NCBI RefSeq assembly: GCF_045679555.1
Contig: NC_092091.1
Span: 16,701,072 to 16,765,071 of the forward strand
DNA from: Salvelinus alpinus
Taxonomy: Eukaryota; Chordata; Actinopteri; Salmoniformes; Salmonidae
DNA length: 64,000 bases
Direction of reading: 5' to 3'
Shown here: positions 6,700 to 58,662 of the stretch, piece by piece
Numbering within the stretch: the stretch's first letter is position 1
How the letters are laid out: the number at the start of each line of letters is the position of its first letter
The notes under the pieces: generated by a model
What the model was told of the DNA's origin: nothing
Seen by the model: only the letters and a program-made list of their open reading frames with translations
Database searches by the model: none
Made by a program: the position numbers and the translations under genes

Positions 6700-7060
6700 T
6701 AGTCTATACAGACACAATTAAGTGTTTTGGCACCCTTACATGTTTCACTATTTCTTCTAAAATAAGTTGTAATTGAAACCTTTTGGGTGTACACATATGT
6801 ATTTGTTTAATTTACAGGATAAAAAAATAAATACATCTGAACTGAAATTTAGATATTTCACTTGAAAGGGAAAAAATGGCCTGGACTAAATTATACAAAA
6901 TTCTAATTAATTTGGTTGGAGGCAGGTGATTCTCGTGTATGTCTAATTTACCTCACCTGTGGTAAGTTGCAGGTGCCTACAGGGTACAAATAGCCATTCA
7001 ACCAGTTCTGAAAAGAGAAAAGGGAACATTTTGCTCCATTACACTCCAATGTAAAATGCA
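6700..7060 (+). repeat. Degenerate Tc1-like fragment (probable)
   Basis: The text resembles the 5' leader of fish Tc1-like elements ('cacctgtggtaagttgcagg', 'tacaaatagccattcaacca'). No transposase frame remains, and 7060-7395 shows nothing clear. Confidence 0.4.
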
Positions 7061-7395
7061 ATGGTGCCATTTAACTGCATCTGCATATGCAACAGCTCCA
7101 ACTGGCGGTGCAGTGTATCAAAGTATCCCATATTATACCAAGTGTTTAATTACAAACGATGGCGTTGTGAGCTGCATTGACAGCTTGGTACCATCAAGTG
7201 CACCATCACACAGATCACATTGGATTAGGCCTCCCTCCGCCTCCCACTCATTGATGGTAAATGTGCAGTTATTCCTGCCCCAGATTAGGACACAGGTCTC
7301 AATCGTCCCCGGCAGCAGGGTTTAGACTGCAGGACAGATGCTTGTTATGATTCCAGATGGCTGTTTGTGTGGCGGTGGAACACATAGAACACATT

Positions 7396-15091: not shown

Positions 15092-15171
15092 GAACCACCC
15101 ACCAGAAAAGGACCAAGCAGCGTGGTAACCAGGAGCAGAGGGTTCAGGACTCCTAGACATGGGAGGAAATT

Positions 15172-17664
15172 TTGGATAGCAAAGGACCCTGGGCACAGCC
15201 GGGGGAGTATCGCCGTCCGAAAGAGGAGCTGGAGGCAGCTAGAGCGGAGCGGCGCCACTATGAGGAATTGGCGCGAGGTAACGGGCACGAGAGGCAGCCC
15301 CAGAATTTTTTTTTTTGGGGGGGGGGGCACACGGGTAGATTGGCGGACTCAGGTAGGAGACCTGAGCCAACTCCCCGTGCTTACCGTGGCGAGAGAGTGA
15401 CTGGGCAGGCACCGTGTTATGCGGAGAAGCGCAAGGTGTCCCCAGTTTGCACGCATAGCCCGGTGCGCTACATCGCAGATCCTCGAATCGGCTGGGCTAG
15501 AGTGGGCATCGAGCCAGGAGGGATGATGCCGGCTCAGCGCATCTGGTCTCCAGTGCGTCTACTCGGCCTGGGGTATACTGCACCAGCCCTACGCACGGTG
15601 TCTCCAGTTCGCCAGCACAGCCCAGTGCGGCCTGTTCCAACTCCCCGCACTTGCCAGGCTACAGGGGGGATCCAGCCAGGACGAGTGGTGCTAGCTCTGC
15701 GCTCGAGACCGCCAGTGCGCCTCCACGGTCTAGTGCATCCGGTGCTTCGGCCAAGGACAAGGCCTCCTGCATGTCTCCCCAGCCTGGTGAGTTCTGTGCC
15801 TGTGCTAAACACTAACCCTCCTGCATGTCTCCCCAGCCTGGTGACTCCTGTGCCTTCTCCCAGAGCCAGGCCTCCTGTGTGTCTCTCCATTCCAGTGATA
15901 ATCCATGGCACGAAGCCTCCAGTGATAATCCATGGCACGAAGCCTCCAGTGATGATCCATGGCACGAAGCCTCCAGTGATGATCCATGGCACGAAGCCTC
16001 CAGTGATGATCCATTGCAAGAAGCCTCCAGTGATGATCCATGGCACGAAGCCTCCAGTGATGATCCATGGCACGAAGCCTCCAGTGATGATCCATGGCAC
16101 GAAGCCTCCAGTGATGATCCACGGCACGAAGCCTCCTGTGAGGATCCATGGCACGAAGCCTCCAGTGAGGATCCATGGCACGAAGCCTCCGGTGAGGATC
16201 CATGGCACGAAGCCTCCGGTGAGGATCCATGGCATGAGGCCTCCAACGAAGGACGTCAGTCCGGAGCCTCCAGCGACACCCTCTAGTCCGGAGCCTCCAG
16301 CGACGCCCTCTAGTCCGGAGCAGCCGGAGTCTCCCTCCTGTCCGGAGCAGCCGGAGTCTCCCTCCTGTCCGGAGCAGCCGGAGTCTCCCTCCTGTCCGGA
16401 GCAGCCGGAGTCTCCCTCCTGTCCGGAGCAGCCGGAGTCTCCCTCCTGTCCGGAGCAGCCGGAGTCTCCCTCCTGTCCGGAGCAGCCGGAGTCTCCCTCC
16501 TGTCCGGAGCAGCCGGAGTCTCCCTCCTGTCCGGAGCAGCCGGGGTCTCCCTCCTGTCCGGAGCAGCCGGGGTCTCCCTCCTGTCCGGAGCAGCCGGGGT
16601 CTCCCTCCTGTCCGGAGCAGCCGGGGTCTCCCTCCTGTCCGGAGCAGCCGTGGTCTCCCTCCTGTCCGGAGCAGCCGTGGTCTCCCTCCTGTCCGGAGCA
16701 GCCGGAGTCTCCCTCCTGTCCGGAGCAGCCGGAGTCTCCCTCCTGTCCGGAGCAGCCGGAGTCTCCCTCCTGTCCGGAGCAGCCGGAGTCTCCCTCCTGT
16801 CCGGAGCAGCCGGAGTCTCCCTCCTGTCCGGAGCAGCCGGAGTCTCCCTCCTGTCCGGAGCAGCCGGAGTCTCCCTCCTGTCCGGAGCAGCCGGAGTCTC
16901 CCTCCTGTCCGGAGCAGCCGGAGTCTCCCTCCTGTCCGGAGCAGCCGGAGTCTCCCTCCTGTCCGGAGCAGCCGGAGTCTCCCTCCTGTCCGGAGCAGCC
17001 GGAGTCTCCCTCCTGTCCGGAGCAGCAAGAGCAGCCGCCCGTCTGTCCTGAGCTGGCGGAGCCGCCCGTCTGTCCTGAGCTGCCGGAGCCGCCCGTCTGT
17101 CCTGAGCTGCCGGAGCCGCCCGTCTGTCCTGAGCTGCCGGAGCCGCCCGTCTGTCCTGAGCTGCCGGAGCCGCCCGTCTGTCCTGAGCTGCCGGAGCCGC
17201 CCGTCTGTCCTGAGCTGCCGGAGCCGCCCGTCAGTCAGGAGCTGCCGGAGCCGTCCTTCACTCCGGCGCTGCCGGAGTCGTCCTTTACTCCGGCGCTGCC
17301 GGAGTCGTCCTTCACTCCGGCGCTGCCGGAGTCGTCCTTCACTCCGGCGCTGCCGGAGTCGTCCTTCACTCCGGCACCGCCGGAGTCGCCTTTCACTACG
17401 GCGCTGCCGGAGCCTCCCATCAGTCAGGAGCTGCCGTACCCGTCCTTCACTCCGGCGCTGCCGGAGTCGCCTTTCACTACGGCGCTGCCGGAGTCTCCCA
17501 TCTATTCGGGGCCCGCTGCAAGGGTTCCCAGTCCGAGGTCGGCAGCGAGGGTCGCCGCTCCAAAGGCGCCACTTAAGCGGGCAAAGACTATGGTGGAGTG
17601 GGGTCCACGTCCCGCGCCAGAGCCGCCACCGCGTACAGACGCCCACCCAGACCCTCCCTTATAG
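15172..17664 (+). CDS. Repeat-built proline-rich ORF of the LTR element
   Basis: An 830-codon frame fills the LTR interior. The true reading may begin further 5', since the same frame already reads TWEEILDSKGPWAQPG before the ATG. A charged N-terminal part (PKEELEAARAERRHYEELA) could form a helix and may be a gag remnant. From about 15890 the protein is four successive 9-residue tandem arrays, all with a 27-nt period: VMIHGTKPP (about 13), EQPESPSCP (about 27), ELPEPPVCP (about 8) and ALPESSFTP types (about 9). No protease, RT or integrase motif is present. The homopolymer run at 15307-15328 lies inside the frame and is a likely length-error site. Function unknown; it could be a gag-like protein or simply repeat drift kept open by the 27-nt period. 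Confidence 0.6.
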   Translation: MDSKGPWAQPGEYRRPKEELEAARAERRHYEELARGNGHERQPQNFFFWGGGHTGRLADSGRRPEPTPRAYRGERVTGQAPCYAEKRKVSPVCTHSPVRYIADPRIGWARVGIEPGGMMPAQRIWSPVRLLGLGYTAPALRTVSPVRQHSPVRPVPTPRTCQATGGIQPGRVVLALRSRPPVRLHGLVHPVLRPRTRPPACLPSLVSSVPVLNTNPPACLPSLVTPVPSPRARPPVCLSIPVIIHGTKPPVIIHGTKPPVMIHGTKPPVMIHGTKPPVMIHCKKPPVMIHGTKPPVMIHGTKPPVMIHGTKPPVMIHGTKPPVRIHGTKPPVRIHGTKPPVRIHGTKPPVRIHGMRPPTKDVSPEPPATPSSPEPPATPSSPEQPESPSCPEQPESPSCPEQPESPSCPEQPESPSCPEQPESPSCPEQPESPSCPEQPESPSCPEQPESPSCPEQPGSPSCPEQPGSPSCPEQPGSPSCPEQPGSPSCPEQPWSPSCPEQPWSPSCPEQPESPSCPEQPESPSCPEQPESPSCPEQPESPSCPEQPESPSCPEQPESPSCPEQPESPSCPEQPESPSCPEQPESPSCPEQPESPSCPEQPESPSCPEQPESPSCPEQQEQPPVCPELAEPPVCPELPEPPVCPELPEPPVCPELPEPPVCPELPEPPVCPELPEPPVCPELPEPPVSQELPEPSFTPALPESSFTPALPESSFTPALPESSFTPALPESSFTPAPPESPFTTALPEPPISQELPYPSFTPALPESPFTTALPESPIYSGPAARVPSPRSAARVAAPKAPLKRAKTMVEWGPRPAPEPPPRTDAHPDPPL
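15889..17500. repeat. 27-bp-period minisatellite arrays (four families)
   Basis: Consecutive arrays of 27-bp units lie at about 15889-16240, 16310-17025, 17035-17230 and 17230-17500. All keep the same period and frame although their sequences differ. The antisense strand is also open for 613 codons (17646-15805). Confidence 0.9.
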
Positions 17665-24557: not shown

Positions 24558-34058
<9,501 letters not shown>

Positions 34059-37116: not shown

Positions 37117-52209
<15,093 letters not shown>

Positions 52210-52862: not shown

Positions 52863-55800
52863 CTAACTTCCCCTGTACGTGCTATAGGAGAAGCGGCTCA
52901 GGAGCAGGGGCAAGTGGAATCTCTCGTTTGGGTTTGTTATAGTGAAGACAATCTGTTGAAGAAAAAAAAGAGAAAGAAACAGAACATAATAAGGGTTTGT
53001 TGGTTTTAATCTTTCAAAAAGGGCGGAAATTCCTCCAGGGCAAATGTATTAGTAGGTGTATTGATACGTCCATGGCTGATACCCACTTACCTCAACATAT
53101 GGGTAGAAGGAGTTGTGACCCAAACTCTCCCAATATTGTCCAGTCTCAAAACGCATCTTATACATCCCAGGCGTGAACGCTTTTGTAGTGATGAGTCCAG
53201 GACAGCGACCATCTTCGTCGGTGGTTCTAAAATAATGAGAAGGTTGATGATTCTGCATGGGTTTTTGTCATATATTCAAGTTTCAAAATTGACATGGCCC
53301 AAAATTAGTATGTTTGTATCTTTTCAATTGCATAAATCAATTATTGGCCATGTACACATATTTTGCAGATGTTATCGCAGGTGCAGTAAAATGCTTATGT
53401 TTGACTAGAATACAGTATATACAGTGCATTTGGAAAGTATTCAGGCCCCTTGACTTTTTCACATTTTGTTACGTTACAGCCTTATTCTAAAATTGATTAA
53501 ATACTTTTCCCCTCATCAATCTACATACAATACCTCATAATATCAAAGCGAAAACAGGTTTTGAAATGTTTTTAAAAAAAATGCAAATGTATTAAACATA
53601 AGTATTCAGAACCTTTGCTATGAGACTCGAAATTGAGCTCAGGTGCATCCTGTTTCCATTGATCATCCTTGAGATGTGTTTACAACATGATTGGAGTCCA
53701 CCTGTGGTAAATTCAATTGATTGGACATGATTTGGAAAACCACACACCTGTCAATGCAGTTGACAATGCATGTCAGAGCAAAAACCAAGCCATGAGGTCG
53801 AAGGATGTGTCCGTTGAGCTTCGAAACAGTATTGTGTCAAGGCACAGATCTGGAGGAGAGTAACAAAACATGTATGCAGCATTGAAGATCCCCAAGAACA
53901 CAGTGGCCTCCATCATTTTTAAATGTAAGAAGTTTGGATCCACCAAGACTCTTCCTAGAGCTAGCCGCCCAGACAAATTGAGCCATCAGGGGAGAAGGGC
54001 ATTGGTCAGGGAGGTGACCAAGAACCCGATGGTCACTCTGACAGAGCTTCAGAGTTCTGTTGAGATGGGAGAAACTTCCAGATGGACAACCATCTCTTCA
54101 GCATTCCACCAATCAGGCCTTTATGGTAGTGGCAAGACAGAAGCCATTCCTCAGTAAAAGGCATATGACAGCCCACTTGGAGTTTGGCAAAAGGCACCTA
54201 AAGGACTCTCAGACCATGACCAACAAGATTCTCCGGTCTGATGAAACCAATATTGAACTCTTTGGCTTGAATGCCAAGCGTCACGTCTGGAGGAAACCAA
54301 GCACCATCCCTATGGTGAAGCATGGGGGTGGCAGCATCATGCTGTGGGAATGTTTTCAGTGGCAGGGATTGGGAGACTAGTCAGGATCAAGCGAGAGATC
54401 CTTGAAGAAAACCTGCTCCAGAGCGCTCAGGACCTCAGACTGGGGCTAAGGTTCACCATCCAACAGGACAACGACCCTAACCATACAGCCAAGACAATGC
54501 AGGATTGGCTTCGGGACAAGTCTCTGAATGTCCTAGAGTGGCCCAGCCAGACCCCGGACTTGAACCCAATCAAACATCTCTGGGGAGACCTGAAAATAGC
54601 TGTGCAGCGACGCTTCCCATCCAACCTGACAGAGCTTGAGAGGATCGGCAGAGAAGAATGGGAGAAACTCCACAAATACAGGTGTGCCAAGCTTGTAGCG
54701 TCATACCCAAGAAGACTCAAGGCTGTTATCGCTACCAAAGGTGCTTCAACAAAGTACTGAGTACAGGGTCTGAATACTTATGTAAATGTAATATATCCAT
54801 TTTTTATTTTCAATACATTTGCAAAAATTTCAAAACTGTTTTTGCTTTGTTATTATTGTGTAGATTGATGAGGAACAAAATTATTTTAATCAATTTTAGA
54901 ATAAGGCTGTAACGTAACAAAATGTGGAAAAAGTGAAGGGGTCTGAATACTTTCCTTATGCACCGTACATATGAAGTGGGTAAAGCAGTATGTGAACATT
55001 AAAGTGACCAGTGTTCAATGACTATGTACATAGGGCAGCAGTCTCTATGGTGGGGGGGTAGAGTGCCAGGTGGTAGGCGGCTAGAACAGTGACTAAGGTT
55101 CAGGGTAGGGTACTGGTAGAAGGTCAGCTAGTGGTGACTATTTGTCTGATAGCTTGGAGATGTTTTTCAGTCTCTCGGCCCCAGCTTTGATGCACCTGTA
55201 CCATCTCCGCCTTCTAGATGGTAGCAGGGTGAACAGGCCGTGGCTCAGGTGTCTGAGGTCATTGATGACCTTCATGTGACACAGGGTGCTGTAGGTGTCC
55301 TGGAGGCATGGCAGTGGGCCCCCAGTGATGCGTTGGGCTGACTGCACCACCCTCTGGAGAAACAGGATGCTCTTAATGGTGCGTCTGTAGAAGTTTGTGT
55401 TGGTCTAAAGGTAGTGCATCTCCATGCATTATCAGTCGATCACTATTAATAATAGCAGTGAACATTTCACAAATAGGCCTGAAGCTAGGCTAACTAGATC
55501 CCAAAGGTATATGCAACACACAAAGGGAGAAAAGAGTGAGACAGTAGGCCTATATCAGGCGGCTTGTTCACCCTACCCCACAGTCACTAGGTAGTAGGAC
55601 TATATCAGGCAGCCATTCACCCTACCCCACAGTCACTAGGTAGTAGGACTATATCAGGCAGCTGTTCACCCTAACCCACAGTCACGAGGTAGTAGGACTA
55701 TAAAAGGCAGCTGTTCACCCTACCCAACAGTCACTAGGTAGTAAGCCTATATCAGGCAGCTGTTCACCCTACCCAACAGTCACTAGGTAGTAGGCCTATA

Positions 55801-58653
55801 TCAGGCAGCTGTTCACCCTACCCCACAGTCACTAGGTAGTAGGACTATATCAGGCAGCTGTTCACCCTACCCCACAGTCACTAGGTAGTAGGACTATATC
55901 AGGCAGCTGTTCACCCTACCCCACAGTCACTAGGTAGTAGGACTATAACAGGCAGCTATTCACCCTACCCCACAGTCACTAGGTAGTAGGACTATAACAG
56001 GCAGCTATTCACCCTACCCCACAGTCACTAGGTAGTAGGACTATATCAGGCAGCTGTTCACCCTACCCCACAGTCACTAGGTAGTAGGACTATATCAGGC
56101 AGGTATTCACCCTACCCCACAGTCACTAGGTAGTAGGACTATATCAGGCAGCTATTCACCCTACCCCACAGTCACTAGGTAGTAGGACTATATCAGGCAG
56201 CTGTTCACCCTACCCAACAGTCACTAGGTAGTAGGACTATATCAGGCAGCTGTTCACCCTACCCCACAGTCACTAGGTAGTAGGACTATATCAGGCAGCT
56301 ATTCACCCTACCCAACAGTCACTAGGTAGTAGGACTATATCAGGCAGCTGTTCACCCTACCCCACAGTCACTAGGTAGTAGGACTATATCAGGCAGCTGT
56401 TCACCCTACCCAACAGTCACTAGGTAGTAGGACTATATCAGGCAGCTATTCACCCTACCCCACAGTCACTAGGTAGTAGGACTATAACAGGCAGCTATTC
56501 ACCCTACCCCACAGTCACTAGGTAGTAGGACTATAACAGGCAGCTATTCACCCTACCCCACAGTCACTAGGTAGTAGGACTATATCAGGCAGCTGTTCAC
56601 CCTACCCCACAGTCACTAGGTAGTAGGACTATAACAGGCAGCTATTCACCCTACCCCACAGTCACTAGGTAGTAGGACTATAACAGGCAGCTATTCACCC
56701 TACCCCACAGTCACTAGGTAGTAGGACTATAACAGGCAGCTATTCACCCTACCCCACAGTCACTAGGTAGTAGGACTATAACAGGCAGCTATTCACCCTA
56801 CCCCACAGTCACTAGGTAGTAGGACTATATCAGGCAGCTGTTCACCCTACCCAACAGTCACTAGGTAGTAGGACTATAACAGGCAGCTATTCACCCTACC
56901 CCACAGTCACTAGGTAGTAGGACTATAACAGGCAGCTATTCACCCTACCCCACAGTCACTAGGTAGTAGGACTATAACAGGCAGCTATTCACCCTACCCC
57001 ACAGTCACTAGGTAGTAGGACTATATCAGGCAGCTATTCACCCTACCCAACAGTCACTAGGTAGTAAGACTATAACAGGCAGCTATTCACCCTACCCCAC
57101 AGTCACTAGGTAGTAAGACTATAACAGGCAGCTATTCACCCTACCCCACAGTCACTAGGTAGTAGGACTATAACAGGCAGCTATTCACCCTACCCCACAG
57201 TCACTAGGTAGTAAGACTATAACAGGCAGCTATTCACCCTACCCCACAGTCACTAGGTAGTAAGACTATAACAGGCAGCTATTCACCCTACCCCACAGTC
57301 ACTAGGTAGTAGGACTATATCAGGCAGCTATTCACCCTACCCCACAGTCACTAGGTAGTAGGACTATAACAGGCAGCTATTCACCCTACCCCACAGTCAC
57401 TAGGTAGTAGGACTATAACAGGCAGCTATTCACCCTACCCCACAGTCACTAGGTAGTAGGACTATAACAGGCAGCTATTCACCCTACCCCACAGTCACTA
57501 GGTAGTAGGACTATAACAGGCAGCTATTCACCCTACCCCACAGTCACTAGGTAGTAGGACTATAACATGCAGCTATTCACCCTACCCCACAGTCACTAGG
57601 TAGTAGGACTATATCAGGCAGCTATTCACCCTACCCCACAGTCACTAGGTAGTAGGACTATAACAGGCAGCTATTCACCCTACCCCACAGTCACTAGGTA
57701 GTAGGACTATATCAGGCAGCTATTCACCCTACCCCACAGTCACTAGGTAGTAGGACTATAACAGGCAGCTATTCACCCTACCCCACAGTCACTAGGTAGT
57801 AGGACTATAACAGGCAGCTATTCACCCTACCCCACAGTCACTAGGTAGTAGGACTATAACAGGCAGCTATTCACCCTACTACACAGTCACTAGGTAGTAG
57901 GACTATAACAGGCAGCTATTCACCCTACCCCACAGTCACTAGGTAGTAGGACTATAACAGGCAGCTATTCACCCTACCCCACAGTCACTAGGTAGTAGGA
58001 CTATAACAGGCAGCTATTCACCCTACCCCACAGTCACTAGGTAGTAGGACTATAACAGGCAGCTATTCACCCTACCCCACAGTCACTAGGTAGTAGGACT
58101 ATAACAGGCAGCTATTCACCCTACCCCACAGTCACTAGGTAGTAGGACTATAACAGGCAGCTATTCACCCTACCCCACAGTCACTAGGTAGTAGGACTAT
58201 AACAGGCAGCTATTCACCCTACCCCACAGTCACTAGGTAGTAGGACTATAACAGGCAGCTAATCACCCTACCCCACAGTCACTAGGTAGTAAGCCTATAT
58301 CAGGCAGCTGTTCACCCTACCCCACAGTCACTAGGTAGTAGGACTATATCAGGCAGCTGTTCACCCTACCCCACAGTCACTAGGTAGTAGGACTATATCA
58401 GGCAGCTATTCACCCTACCCCACAGTCACTAGGTAGTAGGACTATAACAGGCAGCTGTTCACCCTACCCCACAGTCACTAGGTAGTAGGACTATAACAGG
58501 CAGCTATTCACCCTACCCCACAGTCACTAGGTTCCAGATGACTAGGAGTGAGTCCAGTCGGTGCAGACTGAGGGCCATTCTTGCCCCTGGGACTCCGTCA
58601 CCTGTGTTCAACACAAAGGTGGTCAGGGGGCTGTTTGGAAGTGTGGAAGACAT
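52863..58653 (-). CDS. urah: 5-hydroxyisourate hydrolase (transthyretin-like HIUase), three coding exons
   Basis: Coding exons are 58653-58517 (exon from 58662), 53226-53091 and 52952-52863, 120 residues. Phases are 2 then 0, with sites CCACAG|, GG|GTAGGG, TTTTAG|, GAG|GTAAGT and CAACAG|. It belongs to the transthyretin-related family that hydrolyses 5-hydroxyisourate after urate oxidase. Landmarks are [49 protein letters not shown] and the hallmark C-terminus [14 protein letters not shown]. Of the active-site set, Arg in DGRC and His in FHLPLLLS are present, but the N-terminal His of the TTHVL block is Phe (TTT codon). The exon 2 donor merges into a 49-bp minisatellite. A likely 5' UTR exon ends at 59351. 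The next gene on the strand is afg3l1, 654 bp on. The frame is otherwise intact, so it may be functional or a young decaying copy. Confidence 0.93.
53422..54965 (+). mobile_element. Tc1-like DNA transposon F
   Basis: Ends CAGTGCATTTGGAAAGTATT on the left and 'gaatactttccttatgcacc' on the right, each beside TA (53420-53421, 54966-54967). The intact relative at 32500 shows the empty site. A decayed transposase gene runs in plus orientation. Confidence 0.92.
53792..54760 (+). pseudogene. Tc1 transposase, broken, catalytic Glu changed
   Basis: The frame starts near 53792 ([20 protein letters not shown]) and hits a stop at about 53860. It resumes as [15 protein letters not shown], stops again at 54157, and continues in other frames ([34 protein letters not shown]) to the end at 54760. 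Of the DDE triad, RSDETN and QQDNDPNH are kept, but the third residue is Lys (LNPIKHLW). Confidence 0.9.
55541..58530. repeat. 49-bp minisatellite in urah intron, about 61 units
   Basis: Units of 49 bp ('cagtcactaggtagtaggac', 'tataacaggcagctattcac', 'cctacccca') repeat for 3.0 kb with few variant bases (atat/ataa, gctg/gcta). The last unit overlaps the 3' end of urah exon 2 and its splice donor. Confidence 0.96.
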
Positions 58654-58662
58654 CTCTGAAGA

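Follow-up and report, generated by a model that had tools for sequence, protein, structure and literature searches.

The minisatellite of the human gene IFI6 (6-16, G1P3) reportedly provides multiple splice donor sites, an observation ascribed to Turri in 1995. This work is cited in PMC2572611 and PMC2915984, as seen in excerpts of both papers, and a passage of PMC4526556 describes the IFI6 minisatellite with its multiple donors, two downstream repeats of which are used. Amphioxus has tandem repeats that straddle an exon-intron boundary and are termed 'mirages'. According to the excerpted parts of PMC3087553, they occur in globin genes and in Adh3, AG/GT signals are contained in many of the copies, and RT-PCR suggested that regular splicing is undisturbed. 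Further amphioxus mirages are given in a passage of PMC3902484 for troponin C and, in imperfect form, for PGBD5. New introns are reportedly formed by variable repeats that lie at exon-intron boundaries within segmental duplications of the human genome, with a mean of four 30-bp units (PMC2812944, in part), and the VNTR described in the available part of PMC5628181 lies within an intron, away from the junction. Among the titles and abstracts of the matches listed for the open-licence PMC literature, none concerned an array in a fish urah gene.

In this study, we analysed a window of 64,000 nucleotides from Salvelinus alpinus (contig NC_092091.1), i.e. the whole stretch of DNA to which all coordinates refer, in which the end of urah exon 2 runs into a 49-bp minisatellite. 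We consider it probable, with somewhat more than even confidence, that this is a tolerated array of the mirage type, of which mainly the first donor is used.

Gene structure and array anatomy

The coding part of exon 2, exon 3 and the coding part of exon 4 (Table 1) join to an intact 120-aa protein, which matched zebrafish 5-hydroxyisourate hydrolase (E 1.1e-50, residues 4-120), the NCBI model TIGR02962 (120.7 bits, cut-off 87.45) and PF00576 (117.7 bits, cut-off 25.3). Exon 3 opens after TTTTAG with A ACC ACC GAC, and joined to the ...GTG GG of exon 2 it gives G-T-T-D-E-D-G-R-C. Since the phase GG/A fits exon 3 and two paralogues share the junction, the donor is fixed at GG/GTAGGG (the slash marks the splice junction) with 58517 as the last exon base, which confirms the exon end proposed in the initial annotation. 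Two candidate acceptors, seven bases apart, precede exon 2 on the minus strand (CCACAG/TCTTCAG/AGATG, 58655-58662). As both paralogues begin with CAG/AGATG, the exon more likely starts at 58655 than at 58662, where it had been placed before.

Table 1. Features of the array-bearing urah copy in the window
Feature	Position	Strand	Basis
49-bp minisatellite, 61 units	55543..58532	-	Tandem Repeats Finder and independent unit parse
urah exon 2	58517..58655	-	coding from 58653; paralogue exon starts, phase
True 5' splice site GT (GGG/GTAGGG), phase 2	58515..58516	-	frame; paralogue junctions ACAGG/GTAACC (C33 and C5) at the same phase-2 place
Intron 2, 5290 bp	53227..58516	-	array in first 2974 bp
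urah exon 3	53091..53226	-	frame
urah exon 4, coding part and stop	52863..52952	-	frame

Tandem Repeats Finder reported the array with a period of 49, 61.0 copies and 97% matches, and an independent parse of the minus strand gave 61 units, with unit 1 starting at 58532 and the final unit adjoining 55542. Each unit consists of 16 exon and 33 intron bases and spans the exon 2/intron 2 junction, unit 1 comprising the last 16 bases of exon 2 (58532-58517) together with the 5' splice site. The earlier view of this donor as the end unit of a minisatellite of about 3 kb and some 61 copies was thereby borne out. The additional statement that every unit carries the same text holds for the splice signal in nearly all cases, as all units except unit 59 keep GT and GTAGGG at the donor position (60 of 61), but the exact 20-base text CTAGTGACTGTGGGGTAGGG is present in only 52 of the 61; TAGGGT is retained in all of them. 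The recurrence of the 16 exon bases some 50-60 times with a 49-base period is beyond chance, even without a formal test. Two features of mirages were found, namely an exon-intron unit across the junction and copied splice signals.

Among the first 60 units, 17 distinct sequences were counted. The commonest type accounts for 27 of these units and is identical to unit 1, each of units 2-6 contains one or more variants, and the final unit of the array has 50 bases with five differences from the consensus. In the plus-strand reading, most units of 55543-58532 resemble a 3' splice site (CTATTCACCCTACCCCACAG/T, unscored), and an antisense transcript would thus contain dozens of sites that look like acceptors.

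The window contains further repeats. A 26-bp minisatellite at 39373-39822 seems to have grown inside a transposon remnant, which we take to be Tc1-like. On the plus strand, 15157-17664 holds an open frame of 835 aa consisting mostly of 27-bp repeats (PESPSCPEQ-like), where other frames are also open over long distances, and at 25272-25548 the motif TGTC is repeated perfectly 69 times.

Donor strength and choice among the copies

As a measure of donor strength, we used the pairing energy with the 5' end of U1. The true donor reached -9.4 kcal/mol, the donor of exon 3 -11.8 kcal/mol, and a second GT located five bases further in the unit -6.3 kcal/mol. Exactly -9.4 kcal/mol was also obtained for 58 of the 60 later units and a stronger value for none, the exceptions being unit 14 (-4.7 kcal/mol) and unit 59, which lacks the GT. 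Among control GT sites, -9.4 kcal/mol was attained by none of the 122 in the remainder of intron 2, by none of the 5 in intron 3 and by 2 of the 332 in the 5.3 kb upstream. Read-through past exon 2 gives ...NLVTVG followed by TAG, i.e. a stop after residue 46, and consequently the same 46-residue fragment results from every later donor, in agreement with the read-through into a stop codon that had been predicted. An mRNA with such an early stop is expected to be removed by nonsense-mediated decay.

The equal pairing of donor 1 and 58 of the 60 later donors would also suit leaky splicing as in IFI6, in which several early units are used comparably, much of the mRNA includes additional 49-nt units and meets an early stop, and the output of the gene is low. 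Each early unit lengthens the 139-nt exon by 49 nt only, and the use of two downstream repeats in IFI6 (PMC4526556, in part) provides a precedent. On the other hand, amphioxus mirage genes are reported to be regularly spliced in the available passages of PMC3087553 and PMC3902484, and the intact 120-aa frame suggests past production of full-length mRNA. We regard leaky splicing as unlikely.

In the tolerated array that we prefer, splicing would leave mainly at unit 1, which is transcribed first and yields the shortest exon. In addition, the hnRNP A1-type UAGGGU on each donor might shift the choice to the donor most distant from the 3' splice site. A degree of leakage to the units that directly follow would be expected, and the resulting transcripts would stop after residue 46 and then enter the decay pathway. 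UAGGGA/U was found for hnRNP A1 by SELEX, and in excess over SRSF1 this protein favours distal 5' sites, according to excerpts of PMC9634572 and PMC5585400; the latter excerpt also describes SRSF1 as favouring intron-proximal donors. UAGGGU overlaps each donor copy, where the motif is defined for human hnRNP A1 and its reading in fish is assumed. What speaks against a choice of the first donor is that donor 1 is neither stronger nor, in predicted structure, more open than its copies and that IFI6 and SRSF1 point the other way.

Predicted RNA structure was considered separately as a cause of first-donor choice and rejected, because the openness of unit 1 ranked 12, 57 and 35 of 61 in three settings.

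A regulatory role of the array was considered as well. Array-bound hnRNP A1 could hold U1 at donor 1 as a length-tunable switch, in which array length and hnRNP A1 level set the productive share of transcripts and allele length varies between fish; we consider this very improbable. Hardly to be expected is also a functional rheostat, in which the length of the array, via loading of hnRNP A1 or U1, sets the amount of productive urah mRNA. The retention of TAGGGT in all units and of GT in all but one would be in line with it, but the motif arrived with the copied donor, and as UAGGGU belongs to this copied text, its abundance does not indicate selection. Moreover, variable sites are not significantly rarer in the exon and donor part of the unit than elsewhere (5/22 versus 9/27, p 0.53, for the first 60 units, the 50-nt last unit being left out).

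Paralogues, state of the carrier gene and origin of the array

The genome (2.37 Gb, 928 contigs) was searched for urah, which gave 10 matches, including a fragment in the window, and two further urah loci, C33 and C5. No tandem array was detected at the exon 2 junction of either paralogue at the default threshold, and each locus contains one short simple repeat elsewhere. Their intron 2 measures 303 bp in C33 and 3713 bp in C5. Exon 2 of C5 is identical to that of C33 at 128 of 130 bases. The C33 copy is intact, and in C5 (L010, G000:C5:39721500-39731000) exon 3, at 6943-7068, is 10 bases shorter, so that the reading frame is broken. The array-bearing copy differs from C33 at 31 of 118 aligned residues (dN 0.178, dS 2.12, the latter saturated); its exon 2 matches C33 in 95 of 140 alignment columns and the last 16 exon bases in 9 of 16.

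A second array locus was not found in the genome by a search that skips very common words: 24 unit matches were obtained from one candidate stretch, and all of them lie in the urah array. The 25-base unit pattern gave 0 matches in genome_contigs and a 20-base pattern 0 matches in viral_contigs, neither collection being meant for fish. Searches for a sister region yielded 11 matches for the upstream flank (10 of 10 candidates scored), namely the array locus, C33, C5 and fragments on C1, C36, C9, C19 and C20, which we take for an interspersed repeat, and at least 57 matches for the downstream flank, where the best 40 of 9022 candidates were scored. On the plus strand of the window, 40028-40132 and 40287-40343 form an inverted, broken copy of the end of intron 2 (78% over 115 bp) and of part of exon 3 (95% over 57 bp), the remains of a local duplication.

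The state of the carrier gene bears on the question whether the array has any consequence. Of the active-site set His, Arg, His and Tyr, described as important for catalysis in the available part of a plant paper (PMC2834698), the first His is replaced by Phe13 (LTTF) in the array-bearing copy, and His is present there in zebrafish, C33 and C5. Arg, the second His and Tyr are kept. Phe13 was equated with H6 of the Salmonella protein via the zebrafish alignment and the motif instead of a direct alignment, and in the Salmonella enzyme H6A, H95A or Y108F abolishes rapid hydrolysis (PMC4324301). By descent the gene is a urah; its activity is doubtful.

Upstream of exon 2, C33 and C5 have a candidate exon with a PTS2-like signal (MSTSRLQHIKDHLL and MSTSRLQHIKGHLL, respectively), whose join to exon 2 is putative. 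For the array-bearing copy, no qualifying PTS2 exon was found in 28,667 bases upstream, the one motif match being 24 kb away with a stop inside. Shorter scans gave one motif without in-frame Met within 5.3 kb and none within 9.9 kb. Such an exon could lie further off or be of different sequence. Teleosts reportedly possess two forms of 5-HIUase, one of them without a peroxisomal signal, and the rainbow trout enzyme is among those confirmed (PMC4324301). The array-bearing copy would fit the form without the signal. In a relative-rate count with zebrafish as outgroup, 15 residues were unique to the array-bearing copy and 6 to C33 (p 0.08), which is no more than suggestive.

These features would be explained if expression of, or need for, the array-bearing copy had ceased and the array were neutral, without any splicing consequence. 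The exchange of the active-site His for Phe, the missing signal exon in the upstream region searched and the excess of unique residues all point in this direction. Against it, the frame is open and the splice sites are canonical, the other active-site residues are kept according to our own mapping, and pairwise dN/dS is low (0.178/2.12, saturated). From this low ratio it follows that the copies were long constrained and that the array-bearing copy may not be dispensable. Loss of expression or need is an unlikely explanation of the locus. In the reading that we prefer, the array would be tolerated and may cost little, as its carrier is a divergent duplicate beside an intact copy.

Regarding its origin, the array may have started with the tandem duplication of a 49-bp stretch composed of the final 16 bases of exon 2 and the initial 33 bases of intron 2; through expansion and homogenisation, it would then have reached 61 units, each containing a copied 5' splice site. 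Because two paralogues share the junction without having the array, the exon end is its likely source. The anatomy of the array is directly visible in the DNA, and the direction of growth is what we infer from the shared paralogue junction. In this respect, the initial claim that the array grew from the exon end stands as far as the likely source is concerned. With no more than 9 of its final 16 bases shared with C33, the exon end may also have been overwritten later, and growth from exon to array is likely rather than proven.

In the reverse course, the array would have been born within the intron, and gene conversion from it would subsequently have given the exon end its present sequence, which would make the exon end the borrower. 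This is compatible with the exact identity of unit 1 to the commonest unit next to the variants in units 2-6, as well as with the low similarity of the exon end to C33. However, the phase and the ending W-N-[LI]-x-T-x-G are shared with C33, C5 and zebrafish, which is easiest to understand if the coding end came first. We rate conversion as improbable; it could reverse the direction, and an exon-to-array origin is the likeliest.

An older second repeat inside exon 2, upstream of the array, was also considered and dismissed, as its local score of 13 was reached by 561 of 1000 shuffles.

Comparison with known systems

At this locus, near-identical 5' splice sites compete in a natural series with a spacing of 49 nt, and only the first of them leads to the full protein. 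The locus would thus permit an in-vivo test of how one of several equivalent donors is selected by the spliceosome and of the effect of copy number on gene output. At the same time, arrays of the mirage type, described before in amphioxus and, as a related form, in human IFI6, are extended to a teleost genome.

The following comparisons refer to the parts of the cited papers available to us. With the amphioxus mirages, the urah array shares boundary-spanning repeats, copied splice signals and an intact gene alongside. In the globin gene BflGb9, it is the 3' exon boundary that is repeated, as in the urah array. The units differ, with 61 of 49 bp in the teleost gene versus units of 10-72 bp in Adh3 and, in BflGb6, two haplotypes with 6 and 3 units that measure 150-160 bp. 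Splicing of the amphioxus mirages was examined by RT-PCR, whereas the donor use proposed for urah is predicted from DNA sequence. IFI6 is similar in having a minisatellite at a 5' splice site with downstream repeats as candidate donors, but two of its later repeats are used and lead to protein isoforms, whereas the later donors of urah, if used, would lead to an immediate stop. The repeats in human segmental duplications likewise represent expansion of a boundary minisatellite with cryptic splice sites; they are described as making new introns, and none was seen at urah. Short-distance tandem donors (GYNGYN and similar) are competing 5' splice sites, too, but only a few bases apart.

As to the heterogeneous, mostly truncated transcripts that had been proposed as a consequence of the later donors, the analogies point both ways, with undisturbed splicing in amphioxus and used repeats in IFI6. 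The initial annotation recognised neither the carrier as a divergent paralogue with an altered active-site residue nor the array as belonging to a named kind. The kind of array is already known, in both silent and used forms, and within it the urah array has far more units than the quoted amphioxus globin clusters.
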